A stretch of 64,000 nucleotides of DNA from Sipunculus nudus (Eukaryota; Annelida; Sipuncula; Golfingiida; Sipunculidae): positions 44,111,058 to 44,175,057 of the forward strand of contig CM049310.1 in the NCBI GenBank assembly GCA_026874595.1, in the 5' to 3' direction. The position numbers and the translations under genes were made by a program. The notes under the pieces were generated by a model that was not told the DNA's origin, did not search any database, and saw only the letters and a list, made by a program, of their open reading frames with translations. Positions 1,383 to 51,004 of this stretch are shown here, piece by piece (positions within the stretch are counted from its first letter, which is position 1; each line of letters starts with the position of its first letter).

Positions 1383-3612
1383 GTAAAATGCCTTTACCTT
1401 CGATTTTGAACTTTTGTTGAGATAAAAAGGGTATTACATGTATTTTGATTACAAAGTTAGATAGAATAATGCAATTTCTCCGTGACTCGGTGCTTCACTT
1501 AGAGTACAGATGTGAATGTGACTGTTAATTTAACTTGCTAAGACGAACCCGGCAGCGCCTATTACACAAATGCTCATGCCACGAAGATCATCGTTCTGTG
1601 GGAGTTCTGTTGTGAACCGAGCTGTTGATTAGTGAAGGTCTCATTTTCTCCCACCAGAGGTCGTTACGGTTTCCATTCGCTTCAGTTATGCGAACTGGTA
1701 TATATCAAACATTTTTGCTGATTGGATGGTCCTGTGTATATATATAATTGATTGGGTGTCTTTATATTTTAAGACAGAATCTTGAGGTTTCATCCTATAC
1801 TTCAGGGTTTCTTTTTATTCTGTTTCATAATTTGTTGATTGTTATCTATAATTATGAAATGTTCACAGTTCATTTCAATATGTGAGAGCGCAAGAAGAAT
1901 CTGAACACGCCGGAGAGCCAGAATAAAATGTTTTATTTCATTCTGTTTGTATTCGTCGAATTTCCGGGAGTTCCTTCATGAAATGACAAAGACTAATAAT
2001 CGATCAATTAGCTATCAATGTGTTTTAGAGTTTTTATGGTTCTATCATCCGATTAACGTCTGCCAAAAGTCACTGTCTGTGCATGAAATCGATGTGCCTC
2101 AACCCGTCACTTCAGTGAACATGCTCTGACAAAATAAATCGTTCCATCAGAAACTGAATTGTATTAGTAAAATTCTTTTGTGTTGTTATCCTCCTAGATA
2201 TCTGACGGGGAGTCTATCAAAGTAAGTTTAATCATTTATTTTTTTCTTTTTCTTTAATTCTACGAAAACCGAAGACCATTTCTTGATGAAACAGATATAA
2301 CGGAAACGAAAATTGTGACAGAAGAGAAAGGTCTTAATAAATAATTCAGAGATAATTTCTTTGATAAAAAAACCTAATAATAACCAAGGTAATAAGCTTT
2401 AACTAATTAAATAACGTATATTCATACTTTCGGTGAATTCAATGCTTTTAACAAAAAAAATAATAGTGTCATGAAGAGACAATGACAACTAAAAGCAATG
2501 CCGCTAGTATTTCAAACCTGGATGATTGCAGATTTGACAGTTTGACGTGTTCGCGTACACGATGTTATGGCCTAACCAAATATTCCTAGAAAGGGTGCAA
2601 TTGTAGACATCAGATTTTACAAGAGTATTGATCATGTGACTAATGCATGGTTTTGAGCTTTAGCTGGCGACACCTATAAGTTGACAAAGTTATTGTGAGC
2701 CGATATGCATTCAATCTCTTTCACCAAGATTACTCATAAATTATTATCACGATGGCTTTCATGTAATAGTACAAAATTATTTAAAGAAGGGTAAAATAAT
2801 TGAGCATAAATCAAGTACCTAAAACTTAAATTCTTCATGTTGTTGTTAATTTTCATCTCAGAATATGTTCATTTCATATTAAACGTTCAAATTAAGGGCT
2901 TGCTTTATTTTAAATTAATTCCGAGATCATAAATGAGAATTTCAATGGCAGTCCTTTGGAGGAATACACTATAACAGCTGGGCTCACACATAAACACACA
3001 CTCATTTGGACACATTGTAACAAAGTTTCACAAGGATGGACGGGTATATAATTAAACTTACATCAAATCATATCAGAAGTTCCATGGAATATTAAAATTG
3101 CTCTGGGTAGAACATACACTGAAGTACAGACATCATGGTTTAAAGATTGGAAAGGAAGACGGATATATTAACAATAAAAAACTACATACGTCTGTTTATT
3201 ATTTATTTATTACATTTCACAAATTAAATCCGTTGTGGATGCGTATCCCGTATATGACAAGAATATATATCAACTCTTTGGCCATGTGATTCAAAATACC
3301 TGGCACAATACACAATTAAATTATTTACATGACAATAAAGTTATATTAAAGCCAAAAAAAATGTTTATTATCAATAACCATATTGGTAATATGATGGATC
3401 TTGACTGTTTGGTTACCACAATTATGCTTCATTAAAATATCATTCATGAATTTTATTCTAATTATAGTGTGTAACCTGTCCTTACGACTGACGGTTTACA
3501 AAATGTACACGTGAGAATCGGATAATAATATACGACCCAAAACGTGGAAATAGAATCCGTATCATTACATTTGTATGGCCGCTGTACTACCTCATTGTAA
3601 TTTGCGGGTCTA
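1383..3612. other. Intergenic, no gene supported
   Basis: AT-rich sequence with short open frames (1947-2129, 3098-3435) that lack motifs, codon bias or splice support. I see no RNA gene and no mobile element with definable ends. Confidence 0.45.
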
Positions 3613-3617
3613 GTATA

Positions 3618-3682
<65 letters not shown>
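3613..3682. repeat. (TA)n microsatellite
   Basis: A nearly pure TA run of about 70 bp. It directly abuts the left end of the TIR element that starts at 3683. Confidence 0.95.
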
Positions 3683-3686
<4 letters not shown>

Positions 3687-4652
3687 GAACCTGTGTAAAA
3701 AGACCATGTTTAGGATTGATATAAAGTGGTCTTGATTTACAGTTGGTCTTATCAAGGAGTTTACAGCGAGCAGTAAATCACTGGAATAACATTGACCGGA
3801 ATTATGAATGCGCAAATGGTTTGTTTTGTCAAGAATTATGCGCAACATATATATCTAGAAAGGTCCCAGGTTGATGAATCACTTGATCAATTTAAGGATA
3901 GATGCGGTCACTCTACATCAACTTCTGCCGTGATTCATGACGGACGACTGGTCAGTGTAAACCTTACTTTCCCTGAATAACTTCGGAATTATAAAAAATT
4001 CCATCAGTTTCAACACTTCTGACTTATATTAATAATTAGCCATGTATTATAGTATTCCGTCGATTAAAAAAAAATGTTGACGCTTATGATCGGATGACTT
4101 TCATTTTGATTGATAACAGTGAGCCATCGCCCCCTCTGTCACTGACGCCGTTGTTCTCTTATTATCGCCCATATTTACCGCAGCCAAGCTATAGCTAAGG
4201 CGTCATTAGCAACAATAGCTTCACACACGATTCCCACAAATATGAAAATATGGTGTTCAAACTTATGATTGTTTAAAATTTTATATTAAATACTACCAGA
4301 GATAAAATTTGGGAGAAACTTACTAATCCTTGTTACAATATTTATAAAAAAATACCGGTACTATAACGTGCTGTTCCAAAGTCACGCCGAAGGGGGGTCT
4401 CTCGCGCTGTATCAATTAGCACCGGGCTTATCAGCGGCATCTCTTTGTGCCTTGGAGCAGCGAGTTTTATGACCCCTGTCAGCAACATCCAACACGGCCA
4501 GACTCTCACTTGATACTCCATCCCTGTAAACTCCTTGGTTTTATTAAACAGGTCAATCAAAACTAATATTAATGCTTCCGGTTCATGTAATAATGGTCTT
4601 TATATAGGCATGTGGTCTTATTAGTTAGGTGGTCTTTCAGACAGATTCTACT
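3683..4652. mobile_element. ~970-bp TIR element with subterminal GGTCTT repeats
   Basis: The left end (3683-3705) starts AGTTGAACCTGTGTAAAAAG. The reverse complement of the right end (4631-4652) starts AGTAGAATCTGTCTGAAAG, and both end in GACC: an imperfect TIR of 22-23 bp. GGTCTT or its complement AAGACC recurs several times just inside each end (3700-3752 and 4592-4637), as subterminal transposase-binding repeats often do. Two short open frames inside (3792-3980 +, 4342-4560 -) have no recognised domain. The left side is inserted beside a TA microsatellite, so any TA target duplication cannot be told from flanking sequence. It is likely a non-autonomous DNA transposon. Confidence 0.6.
4540..4545 (-). 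terminator. Candidate poly(A) signal AATAAA for the membrane-protein gene
   Basis: AATAAA on the minus strand, about 145 bases after the stop codon of the orphan gene at 4691-5527 and inside the 3683-4652 TIR element. AATAAA is common by chance in AT-rich DNA, so its use is only inferred. Confidence 0.3.
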
Positions 4653-32126: not shown

Positions 32127-43944
<11,818 letters not shown>

Positions 43945-45076: not shown

Positions 45077-45504
45077 GGAAAGGTCTAGTATATCCTAGAC
45101 CCAGCAGCAACTTTCAGACATTGAAAGGTTGTGCTCACGATATCCATAGCCCTTTGGACAAGTGGATAAGTGTAATTGTGCAGCCCTGGTTAATATACCC
45201 AAAAATCGTAATTATTGGTAAAGTTATATTTAGTTAGATTCAGTAGACCGGCAATAAAGAGAACTTTCAAATGAGTGGTCACTCACAGGGGTAAATATGG
45301 TAATGTGAGATATGTAAAGTAAATCTTAATAGTTAATTAGCAAATAAAAATCAAATTAAATTACTTTTCCCCATGGGATTTTGTAGGGCTTTGGATATCT
45401 TAGTCTCCATAACCTGAGTAAAAATAACAGTTGGTTTCTTCTCTGTTGCAATTTGTTCCGGGTTCATCCGCTTGTTGTTACGGGACCAAAGTTTAGTGTC
45501 GCGT
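45077..45504 (+). repeat. Block X, copy 1
   Basis: About 430 bp, from GGAAAGGTCTAGTATATCCT to TTTAGTGTCGCG, repeated at 46039-46468 with roughly 90% identity by eye. With block Y it forms a unit of about 960 bp. Confidence 0.85.
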
Positions 45505-45622
45505 AAAATGGCTTTTCCAGTAAACCTGATGTTGCACTCGCTTGTGTCCGCACCATATTTCAATGATTATTCAATAAAATGTTTCCTGAGTTAATCATAA
45601 TTATGTCTTAAATGGATTTTGC

Positions 45623-46033
45623 ATATAGCTCAAGGAACCTGGTATTAGTATCAGGTGAAGCGTATATACCTATAGAGAGTCTAAGTTTCGAAAAATATCC
45701 TGAGTGTAGCATTTGCTCGCGAGGGGACACCTGGATCATGTTTTGGACGTGTGGAAACATATGCTATTTAATAGACTGAACAGTACAAAGATCAGATAAA
45801 CCGTGTATCTAACTACATAAAGCCGGCACATAGCAAGCTTTGCTTTGCTGAGGCAACAATGAAAATCAATTTGTTTGTATACCCCCCATTTTGTAAAACT
45901 ACAACCAAACATGTAAGGGACCAGAAACCCAGGCGAAGCAAACTCTCCTTCGCTTTTTTATAGACTAGGGTGCTAAACGCTCTCTATTATACCTTTTTCT
46001 TAAATAGCCCCATTTACATTTCTGCCATGGCCT
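45623..46033 (+). repeat. Block Y, copy 1
   Basis: About 410 bp from TATAGCTCAAGGAACCTGG to CTGCCATGGCCT, repeated at 48607-49020. Shared blocks include TACAAAGATCAGATAAAC, TTTGCTGAGGCAACAATGAA and GGCGAAGCAAACTCTCCTTC. Confidence 0.85.
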
Positions 46034-46038
46034 AATTA

Positions 46039-46468
46039 GGAAAGGTCAAGTATATCCTAGACCCAACAGCAACTTTCAAACAACAAAAGGTTGTGCTCAC
46101 GATATCTATAACCCCTAGGACAAGTGGATAAGTGTAATTGTGCAGCCCTGGTTAATATACCCAAAAATCGTTATTATTGGTAAAATTATATTTAGTTAGA
46201 TTCAATAGACCGCCAATAAAGAGAACTTTCAAATGTGTGGTCACTCAAAGGGGTAAACATGGCAATGTGAGATTTGTAAAGTAAATCTTAATAGTTAATT
46301 AACCAATTAAAATCAAACTAAATTACTCACTCATGGGATTTTGTGGGGCTTTGGATATCTTTGTCTCCATAACCTCCTGAGTAAAAATTACAGTTGGTTT
46401 CTTCTCTGTTGCAATTTGTTCCAGGTTTAACCGCTTGTTGTTACTAGACCAAAGTTCAGTGTCGCGTT
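46039..46468 (+). repeat. Block X, copy 2
   Basis: It starts immediately after block Y copy 1, so X and Y were once tandemly duplicated. Sequence identity with copy 1 stops at GTGTCGCG, where a ~2.1-kb insertion begins. Confidence 0.85.
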
Positions 46469-46991: not shown

Positions 46992-48245
46992 CAGTGTCGC
47001 CGCGTTAACTTACCAGAGGTTTGATGGGTTTTCCCGAAACTCACCAATATATACTCTCTCCCGAGTATGATTCTGGGCAAAATGCATGCTGATTTAATGA
47101 GGTCATACGCTCTTTACACAGCGCTTTAACTATAGGACTACTGCCTATATGGTAAGCGCTGTTTGTTATGACCTCGTATCCTGAATTGCTACACCAGAGG
47201 GGAGCACTGTATTTTTGTCCAATCAGATGAGACCTTGTGCTGGAAGACACGGCCAAGCGAGGAATACACGGAGCCTATCATGTTCATTTCGTTTTGAGTG
47301 ACAGCTCATCGTCCCGGTAACCGTCTGGACAGGCCACAGACTCGGAGAGAATTGCCGCAGACGTGGTTTGCTTAGGGCTATGTGCACATAGGATGCCCGG
47401 CCGGCGAGCTGTAATTCAAACGAAACGTAACAACAAAGGCTGTGTGCACACCTCGCTGGCTGGTTTCAGTTCTGCAGACAACAGATACATGTCAACACTA
47501 ACACAGTCATACTGTCAGTATCGAATCGGTCGATGATGCGAGAATGCAGAAGGAACAATTAAAATTCGGCCGTAAGCTGTCGTCAAACGGCGCATGAAGC
47601 GCAGCTATGGGCGGAGCCAGGATGCCTGTCGAGTTTTTGTTGGCATCTGGTTGGCTGCTTGTCACATCATACGCACGTGTTTTCAGCGGACAACGAACCG
47701 CCATCTGGTGTCTAAATATATCATAAACGGTCAAAGCTGGCAGCGTGAAAATCAGTTGCTTCTTTAAAAGCGTAAGATTTCCGCTGCCTCGGGAGCGTAA
47801 TGAGGTCAGAGGTCACCAGGATTCTTTGTTGTGTCGCCTCGATAACTTACCAGGAAAGTAGTGGATTGTGATTAAACGCAACAGAAATATATTAACCAAT
47901 ATAAAAATATTGCCAAACTCCGATTTTTGGAGGTCAGAGGTCATCAGATATTGGTGGTGCAGTGATGACTTACCAAGATGACTTACCAAATTTCTAAAGG
48001 ATTTTCATGAAACTCGCATTAAATAATTTTCTCAACTTAATTAAAAGAAAAAAAAATATTCGGCAAAATTTACGTATGCCTAATGAGGTCAGATGTCACC
48101 AGACTTCCTTTTGGTTGATGTGATGACCATGAATTTGATATCGGTGTCGATGGCATTCAATATAAAGCTTTAACAATTAAAGTAGGTCCACTGTTTTCAA
48201 TTTTCTGCAAAGTCTGTGCAAAATGTAATCAGGTCATAAGACATA
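46992..48245 (+). repeat. Degenerate ~130-155-bp tandem array with AGGTCA direct repeats
   Basis: At least three units alternate a GTGTCGCC..GATAACTTACCA block with a TAATGAGGTCAGAGGTCACC block. Perfect AGGTCA repeats with a one-base spacer occur at 47803-47815 and 47931-47943, and an imperfect one at 48086-48098. The 694-bp element at 47106-47799 is inserted exactly in the first AGGTCA block. Confidence 0.6.
47106..47799. mobile_element. 694-bp TACGCTC element, copy 1, with a 9-bp target duplication
   Basis: The element starts TACGCTC and ends GAGCGTA. ATGAGGTCA flanks it perfectly on both sides (47097-47105 and 47800-47808). The TIR is short and discontinuous: TACGCTC, six unmatched bases, CAGCG. 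Just inside the left end, CAGCGCTT..TATAGG..CCTATA..AAGCGCTG forms a long hairpin. There is no convincing coding frame. A copy with ~90% identity by eye lies at 50297-50995. Nine-base target duplications are typical of Mutator-like transposases, so this is probably a non-autonomous MULE or an undescribed relative. Confidence 0.85.
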
Positions 48246-48606
48246 CGGCGAGCGTATTATGCCCTCTTACGGTGCTCTTTGTGTGCTATTTCATGTAATT
48301 TGACCATTTCACCTTTTCCTTTAAGTATGAAATATTTGATCTCCTGATGCAAATGTCCATTAAGCCTATGTACTCCCAAAATGTTGCTGCAATATTTTAT
48401 TAACTGTACACTTTAGATGAACATTTGCCATGTTATAAGGTGTATCAAAAATGTTAAGGTAAACCAGACTCCTGTAGTGTCCAGTCAAATAGAATATTAA
48501 TGCAAGTAGTTTTAAAATATTTAACTCAAAATTTGACAATCGGTATAATATCCGGATCAGGCTTTTCAGGTAAACGTGATCTGGCTTTCGCTCGTGTCCG
48601 CTCGTG

Positions 48607-49020
48607 TATAGCTCAAGGAAACTGGTATTAGTAACAAGTGAAGCGTAGCCTTTATACCTATAGACAGAGTCTTAGTTTCCAAAAATTGCTTGTTAGGTGA
48701 CACTTTGAGCATGTTATGGACGTGTGAAAACATATGTTATTTAAGAGTCTAAACAGTACAAAGATCAGATAAACGTGTACCTCACTACGTATAGCCGATA
48801 CACAGCAAAAATTACTTTGCTGAGGCAACAATGAAAATAAAAACTGAAAATCAATTTGTTTTGGATACCCCTACTCTTGTTAAACTGCAACCAAATAGGT
48901 AAGGGACCAGAAACCTGGGCGAAGCAAACTCTCCTTCGCTTCCTAATAGACTCAGGTGCTAAACGCTCTCTGTTATACCTTTTTCTAAAATCGCCCCATG
49001 TACACTTCTGCCATGGCCTT
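48607..49020 (+). repeat. Block Y, copy 2
   Basis: The second copy of block Y, preceded by about 45 bases (GGCTTTTCAGGTAAACGTGA onward) that match the X-Y junction of unit 1. This shows that it belongs to the interrupted second unit. Confidence 0.85.
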
Positions 49021-50287
49021 ATTAATCCTAGAAGTCAGATGGAACCTCGCGAGATTAAATAAAGCAAACTCTTTATTCTTTGTTGATTTTATCATTTAGG
49101 AATTTTGTTTTGGCATGGATAACCTTTTCATAACAATTAACGTGGCAGTATCACGCCCATTTACAAAACATGGAAGTTCATGATAGACTGAGGCTTTAAG
49201 TTATTGCTTTGTTTCATGATTCACAGTTCTTTGTTTGTCTGTTTGTTATGTTTTAATAGCTATCTCTTACAGCTGCCACATAATATTTTTCCAAATTATT
49301 TAAAAGATGGATCTTACTGTAATCTCACAAAATATACTTTTAAAAATTGGAAAACAGCATGTACAATTTGTTTTCCCAATTTTTCCCACCTGTTTTCACA
49401 ATGCGGTAGGTACCTTGGGATTTTATTATAAATATTTGCACGTACCCGTCCGTGATTATCTTGTAGCTTTGAACGTGTATATTTGCTCATTCAGTTTCAC
49501 CATTATTCTCCATTTACACCTTTCGTATCCTTCAAAGCTGTTAATGTAATTTGCCTAATTTCCGTAATGTTCCTCAGATTTCTTGAAATAAGAGACACTG
49601 TCTGTACATGACTGGTCATCAAGCCTCCTTGTTTATGATATTTTCGCATAGTATGAAAATTTAATATTGTGTTCCGAGTGCTGGTGAGATCTAAAATTGA
49701 ATACCATCCTTCAAACGTATACAGACAGTCAGAAGACCGATACATTATTAAACAGTTTGCACTGTAAATCACCCAGTTTAATTTAACATAGCCGTCGCTG
49801 ACAAATTATGGGAATCTCTGTCAGAATTTGGGATTTTGATTTAGAAAAGACGAGGAACTAATCTTCCGTTTTCCTGTCCGTCCATTCGACAGGCGAAACA
49901 TAACATGCCACCAGGTATAAGGGAAACCTAAGCTCAATTAATTTCTTTATTCACCATGTTAACCAGCGTAACACGGGTTTAAGAACCTCGAAAATTAAGC
50001 CCTTGTCCGTGAAAATACCGACATTTTACTCTTTAATGGAGAGCATAAAACAATTTTTATTTGTGCAGTTCTAAAGTACTAACTGAAAACAATAATGAAA
50101 AAAAAAATCATGTAATGTTTATTAATAACATTTTCAACCATGCGTGTTTGACCCTCGATAGATTTCGTTATTCTTTGTAAAATACACAAATATCTTAATA
50201 TCAGGCAGCATTTACATTTCATAAATTTGTTGGTATTTGCATTTTAATGCACTTGACCTTGATCTATACATGATTTTTTACTTACAT
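49021..50287. other. Intergenic, no gene supported
   Basis: Short frames at 49204-49772 have no motifs. No repeat ends could be read here. Confidence 0.4.
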
Positions 50288-50296
50288 TTTCTGAGT

Positions 50297-50995
50297 TACG
50301 CTCTTTACACAGCGCTTTACCTATAGGGCTACTTCCTATATCGTAAGGCGCTGTTTGTTATGACCTCGTATCCTGAATTGCAACACCAGAGGGGAGCACT
50401 GTATTTTTGTCCAATCAGATGAGACCTTGTGCTGGAAGCCAAAGCCAAGCGAGGAATACACGGAGCCAATCATATTCATTTCTTTTTGAGTGACAGCTCA
50501 TCCCCCAGCGTAACCGTCTGAACAGGCCACAGGCTCAGAGAGAATTGCCTCTGACGTGGTTTGCTTAGGGCCTTGGGCACATAGGATGCTCGGCCGGTGA
50601 GCTGTAATTCAAACGAAACGTAACAACAAAGGCTGCGTGCACACCTCGCTGGCTGGTTTCAGTTCTGCAGACAACAGATACATGGCTACGCTAACACAGT
50701 CATAATGTCATAATCGAATCGGTCGATGATGCGAGAATGCAGAGGGAGCAATTTAAATTTGACCGGAAACTAATCAAGCGGCGCTTGAAGCGCGGCAATG
50801 GGCGGAGCCAGGATGCCTGTCGAATGTTTGTTTATTGGCATCTGATTGGCTGCTTGTCACATCGTACCCACGTTTATTTCAGTGGACAACAAACCGCCAT
50901 CTGGTGTCTAAATATATCATAAACGGTCAGAGCTGGCAGCGTGAAAATCAGTTGCTTCTTTAGAAGCGCAAGATTTCCGCTGCCTCGGGAGCGTA
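50297..50995. mobile_element. 699-bp TACGCTC element, copy 2, with a 9-bp target duplication
   Basis: Same ends and order as copy 1, flanked by perfect TTTCTGAGT on both sides (50288-50296 and 50996-51004). The subterminal hairpin is kept and is somewhat longer, since TTTAC faces GTAAG here. The different target sequence shows an independent insertion rather than a segmental duplication. An open frame of 61 codons at 50737-50922 is not shared with copy 1 and is not called. Confidence 0.85.
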
Positions 50996-51004
50996 TTTCT
51001 GAGT

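Follow-up and report, generated by a model that had tools for sequence, protein, structure and literature searches.

Two TACGCTC-ended elements of Sipunculus nudus as probable members of a high-copy MITE family with mostly 9-bp target duplications

Two similar stretches of DNA of about 695 bp in the genome of Sipunculus nudus raise the question of what kind of mobile element they are and which transposase moves them. They lie in a stretch of 64,000 nt, hereafter the window, which corresponds to G000:C5:44111058-44175057 of a 1.43-Gb assembly (GCA_026874595.1, contig CM049310.1). The initial annotation, made from the letters of the window alone, described them as two copies of a transposon with the ends TACGCTC and GAGCGTA and assigned their movement to a Mutator-like transposase acting in trans. 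Our analysis indicates, with a probability of roughly 0.93, that both copies belong to a family of non-autonomous DNA transposons of the miniature inverted-repeat transposable element (MITE) type that has a high copy number. The choice of superfamily is much more tentative and is weighed below.

We re-cut and aligned both copies (Table 1). They had 91.0% identity across 701 aligned columns, close to the value of about 90% estimated earlier by eye, and their similarity broke off exactly at TACGCTC and GAGCGTA. Each copy was flanked by a perfect 9-bp target duplication of its own: ATGAGGTCA at copy 1 and TTTCTGAGT at copy 2. Since the two duplications differ, the copies represent independent insertions. 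The initial annotation was therefore correct in the copies, their exact ends, their separate duplications and their independent origin, and an exact 23-base 5′ end of the element was found 2517 times in the genome (0 occurrences for the reversed control). No third copy of the family was revealed by BLASTN in the window, where the remaining matches were of 18 bases or shorter. A candidate paralogous empty site for copy 1 (48081–48110, 26 of 30 positions similar) was rejected as weak, its similarity being carried almost wholly by the right flank.

The 694-bp sequence of copy 1 was used as a query against the whole assembly, and the best 40 of 2962 candidate places were scored. They yielded 44 matches, 40 of which spanned query positions 1–694 or 2–694, one full-length copy per place; this agrees with the fixed ends predicted for the element. 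The other four were partial pieces adjoining full copies at three places with nested insertions. Together with copy 2 of the window, the first sample comprised 41 full copies, which diverged by 1.9–5.5% from their 699-bp consensus. Perfect 9-bp duplications flanked 28 of them, while five duplications had one mismatch and two had two mismatches. The expected 9-bp duplication was thus present, at no more than two mismatches, in 35 of the 41 copies; two copies had 8-bp duplications and four had none. Two copies (L010 and L035) had the same duplication, and because of this the pair probably arose by copying of the locus. A match to a viral contig of IMG/VR (L009) consisted of a single exact 18-mer; the frames looked phage-like by eye, and the match was regarded as chance.

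A second sample was taken from the first 100 places listed for the 2517 exact 5′ ends and included 62 ends in 60 pieces, all of them on one contig and chosen by position order with three skipped. A candidate 3′ end was found inside the piece for 23 of the 62 ends; 36 of the other 39 were situated in pieces of 291 bp, whose shortness allowed no verdict. Among these 23 elements, 14 had perfect 9-bp duplications and four had duplications with one or two mismatches (18/23 at no more than two mismatches), two had 8-bp duplications, and three had none. Cross-paired controls gave matching duplications in 3 of 506 cases, and by inspection two of these traced to L097, which is a duplicated locus, and the third to L088, in which one 3′ end was common to two rows. 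A chance origin of the duplications is excluded. Elements L082 and L088 were without a duplication, probably because the 3′ end used belongs to another element; L090, 592 bp in length, had 29 + 40 end bases in common with the family and was also without a duplication.

Three length classes were seen in the second sample: 651–702 bp, 460–470 bp, and 83–98 bp. In the 460–470-bp class (L081, L092, and L096), consensus positions 1–264 were fused to 503–699. The shortest class consisted of seven elements (L085, two in L097, L103, L107, L110, and L118), which retained just 45–52 bp of the 5′ end and 39–54 bp of the 3′ end, with differing junctions. Their duplications were perfect in four cases, had one mismatch in one case and two mismatches in another, and were 8 bp long in one; two of the four perfect duplications belong to the single duplicated locus L097. 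This locus (G000:C1:33621720-33622900) held the same 83-bp element and duplication twice, 320 bp apart, and since the surroundings of both elements are similar, the element was probably copied together with them. A longer form of 917 bp, L140 (locus coordinates 47–963), had an additional interior of ~240 bp and a duplication with one mismatch; L127 proved on follow-up to be the same as L140. L132 matched consensus positions 1–111 only. Members ranged in length from 83 to 927 bp, with one nested insertion left aside.

The terminal inverted repeat (TIR) was only 7 bp long (TACGCTC/GAGCGTA) and was followed, after six other bases, by the inverted block CAGCG at positions 14–18, the discontinuous arrangement noticed in the initial annotation. 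The subterminal hairpin reported there was also present, beside both ends rather than one: at consensus positions 13–57 and about 639–688 of 699 bp. The arms of the 5′ hairpin were ACAGCGCTT and AAGCGCTGT, enclosing TATAGG...CCTATA, and those of the 3′ hairpin were GGCAGCGTGAAAATC and GATTTCCGCTGCC. In predicted folding, none of 500 mononucleotide shuffles was as stable as the actual sequence at either end. For the most part, the stem pairs were nearly invariant among 63 distinct 5′ ends.

Target preference was analyzed in 34 sites of the first sample with no more than two mismatches, one of the duplicated pair L010/L035 being excluded. Counting outward from the duplication, 30 of the 34 sites had a pyrimidine (Y) as the third base to the left, and 26 had a purine (R) as the third base to the right. 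A pyrimidine occupied the third position to the left in 45 of 60 cases of the second sample (p = 1.3e-4); the two positions separating this base from the duplication held pyrimidines in 29/60 and 36/60. The preferred target is symmetric and can be written as Y-NN-[9 bp]-NN-R. Three of the 41 copies (L012, L015, and L016) were inserted in other family members, all within consensus positions 629–655. L016 was a nested copy with both 9-bp duplications perfect, and its target was GGTCAAAGC (consensus 629–637); L015 seems to have used this site too, with the reverse orientation, and the target of L012 was GAAAATCAG (consensus 647–655). Loci holding more than one copy may have been found preferentially, so that the rate of self-insertion is not fixed by the sample; the clustering of the three insertions is no more than suggestive.

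Seven frames of 54–101 aa overlapping copies 1 and 2 gave no Pfam match at E <= 0.01. Only one stop-to-stop frame of at least 100 aa overlapped the copies; it was 101 aa long and extended beyond the 3′ end of copy 1. No tRNA was found by ARAGORN in the 699-bp consensus, and no match was obtained with Rfam at gathering thresholds in the window. Thus, the family has the properties of MITEs: numerous dispersed copies sharing fixed inverted ends, target duplications of fixed length (mostly 9 bp), and short elements with no transposase gene of their own. The family is possibly new and its kind is already known; TACGCTC combined with "target site duplication" had no match in the literature, a comparison that stood outside Repbase and Dfam.

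Since the copies are non-autonomous, we infer that a transposase acts on them in trans, and this part of the initial proposal stands. A transposase encoded elsewhere would recognise the last 40–50 bp of each end, excise the element, and join it to cuts staggered by 9 bp, the repair of which would produce the duplication. The hairpins may be binding sites of the transposase or may shape the end. The 83–98-bp elements, being nearly all end and still carrying 9-bp or 8-bp duplications, support the sufficiency of the two ends for mobility.

Regarding the superfamily, the 9-bp duplication is not specific to Mutator and alone names no superfamily, because AcademH, Merlin, and hATm can give 9 bp too. 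Mutator is the single likeliest source of the transposase, although at below even odds; the family would then be a short-TIR or nearly non-TIR derivative of Mutator-like elements (MULEs). Its duplications fall within the 8–11 bp reported for MULEs, and at least 131 matches to the MULE domain (PF10551) were found in the same genome among the best 150 of 252 candidates scored. MULEs that lack TIRs and produce 9-bp duplications are known (Curupira, PMC6446971), and the active animal MULE Muta1 has many internally rearranged derivatives (PMC5225508), to which the non-autonomous derivatives of many lengths found here can be likened. However, two MULE surveys give TIR lengths, where a TIR is present, of 14–500 bp in one case and 13–1193 bp with G/C-rich first bases in the other, whereas the TIR here has 7 bp and starts with TAC. 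Muta1 shows no target preference according to PMC5225508, while the TACGCTC family has one, lying outside the duplication. Moreover, loci of 30 of the 131 MULE matches were cut out and searched over 1.5 kb on each side (three also over ~9 kb) with one mismatch allowed per end, and the pair TACGCTC/GAGCGTA with a duplication was found at none of them; three of the 30 loci held a single exact TACGCTC or GAGCGTA apiece, never as a pair with a duplication. These results neither establish nor exclude the Mutator part of the initial proposal. A MULE family with a 607-aa frame was rejected as the partner: two of its copies were alike over 8.6 kb, and the ends of the TACGCTC family were absent in the 9 kb read. 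This frame (L075 and L076, ~44 listed matches) lies in a repeat that was 97% identical over 8.6 kb between the two copies, and the ends of that repeat itself were not found. In the 10 kb from a 5′ end with 44 bp in common with the family (L098), there was no exact GAGCGTA, no near match with a duplication, and no frame of at least 120 aa. AcademH, the Academ lineage with a helicase, is reportedly present in animals and fungi, judging from the title of the original paper, and is a doubtful candidate for the mover. Its duplications are 9 or 10 bp long (PMC10045372), a length into which those of our family fall. A known transposase of the hAT-like (hATm), Merlin, or another type with 8–9-bp duplications is slightly more doubtful. 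The hATm termini TAGGGTG/CACCCTA also start with TA and go with 8- or 9-bp duplications (PMC6004678), Merlin is likened to the family by its 8–9-bp duplications (PMC4482050), and a few family copies do have 8-bp duplications; but 9 bp is strongly dominant in the family, TAGGGTG differs from TACGCTC, and some hATm TIRs run to hundreds of bases according to PMC6004678. It is unlikely that an undescribed transposase lineage is involved, characterized by recognition of hairpin-bearing ends of 40–50 bp with a 7-bp TIR, cuts staggered by 9 bp at Y-NN-N9-NN-R targets, and reinsertion at a hot spot within the element's 3′ end.

A longer copy with the same ends and a transposase gene had been suggested in the initial annotation as the object of a search, and the 3267-bp element L099, found by extending the 5′ end L080, resembled it. 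It combined both family ends with a YqaJ domain (E = 8.6e-12) and was flanked on each side by GTCCAGGAT, with two extra bases at the 3′ end, so that it might have been the autonomous parent with a nuclease-like protein as the mobility enzyme. This is very improbable. The 2336-bp coding part of L099 was itself a dispersed repeat (487 candidates, best 40 scored; element positions 340–2679 for the dispersed interior), with ends of its own (AGGGC.../...GCCCT) and ATTA as a duplication of 4 bp. Once this part was removed, L099 was 927 bp long and colinear with the 917-bp L140 over its full length (76%). The separately dispersed interior and the colinear emptied element therefore indicate that the coding gene of L099 belongs to another transposon, nested in a 927-bp family member, and a deletion series of 3267 > 917 > 699 bp was dropped. 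SAP and SWIM motifs read by eye in L099 had no Pfam support. ISL2EU (PHIS) was compared on account of the YqaJ gene of L099; it differs from the family in its AT duplication and usually GG ends according to the literature, and the YqaJ gene of L099 lies in a nested insertion.

Several other observations were made on the YqaJ-bearing elements. The nested element with its decayed YqaJ gene occupies about 427–2762 on the reverse strand of the L099 locus (G000:C1:3842150-3852050); many of the copies at the best 40 of its 487 candidate places had a common internal gap, and several scored copies were situated near contig ends (C3:1522, C4:15275, C15:30458). At least 130 YqaJ matches were found in the genome, with the best 150 of 171 candidates scored. 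Locus L142 (G000:C17:16818500-16825500) contained an intact 566-aa frame at 2230–3927 with YqaJ and Viral_alk_exo matches and 61–64% identity to pieces of L141 and L099. Four places among the best 150 of the 171 candidates tie in score and frame length, which suggests recent copies of the L142 frame. No further frame of at least 150 aa was found in the 7 kb read at this locus, and it is possibly a mobile element without a recognised transposase. In L143 (G000:C12:46979700-46986700), there was a 471-aa YqaJ frame with a weak PHD-like match, and the opposite strand held a frame of 438 aa that matched HTH_Tnp_4 and DDE_Tnp_4 (E = 5.7e-50 for the latter). Judging by its sequence, this is a putative ISL2EU-like element, having the build of that group.

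Some results weigh against the assignment of copies 1 and 2 to a MITE family or against details of the picture given above. The first sample consisted of best-scoring places and is therefore biased, leaning to young, clustered copies. Duplications were lacking in 4/41 copies of the first sample and 3/23 of the second. Position 3 of the duplication was T in 35 of 60 sites in the second sample versus 10 of 34 in the first, so the target rule is unsettled. A transposase gene between family ends was found neither at the 30 MULE loci nor at three loci (L099, L142, and L143) of the 130 YqaJ matches, and the family could be an orphan. Because the stem pairs are nearly invariant, covariation neither supports nor refutes a function of the predicted hairpins. 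In some members the 5′ hairpin was incomplete: the 83–98-bp elements lacked the greater part of its outer stem's inner arm (consensus 49–57), and the L099 member was short of eight inner-stem bases, so at least these parts may be dispensable.

The TACGCTC family, whose exact 5′ end occurs no fewer than 2500 times, has added insertions of 0.08–0.9 kb to a large genome. Its defined ends, 83–98-bp members, and target preference make end recognition testable. The partner transposase, once found, would provide either a well-populated short-TIR branch for a lineage with 9-bp duplications or a new lineage.

Table 1. Positions of the two MITE copies, their target duplications, and their predicted hairpins in the window.
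Feature	Position	Strand	Basis
MITE copy 1, 694 bp, ends TACGCTC...GAGCGTA	47106..47799	+	re-cut and aligned
Target duplication ATGAGGTCA, left of copy 1	47097..47105		
Target duplication ATGAGGTCA, right of copy 1	47800..47808		
5′ subterminal hairpin, copy 1 (consensus 13–57)	47118..47162	+	predicted on consensus
3′ subterminal hairpin, copy 1 (consensus ~639–688)	47739..47788	+	predicted on consensus
MITE copy 2, 699 bp, ends TACGCTC...GAGCGTA	50297..50995	+	re-cut and aligned
Target duplication TTTCTGAGT, left of copy 2	50288..50296		
Target duplication TTTCTGAGT, right of copy 2	50996..51004		
5′ subterminal hairpin, copy 2	50309..50354	+	by consensus position
3′ subterminal hairpin, copy 2	50935..50984	+	by consensus position

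Other repeats were also found in the window. In the neighbouring region 45077–46467, positions 45077–45365 were 92% identical to 46039–46327, and pieces of 45713–46038 resembled 48686–49024 (82–87%). A 41-bp unit was repeated in tandem in 13 copies at 36656–37175.

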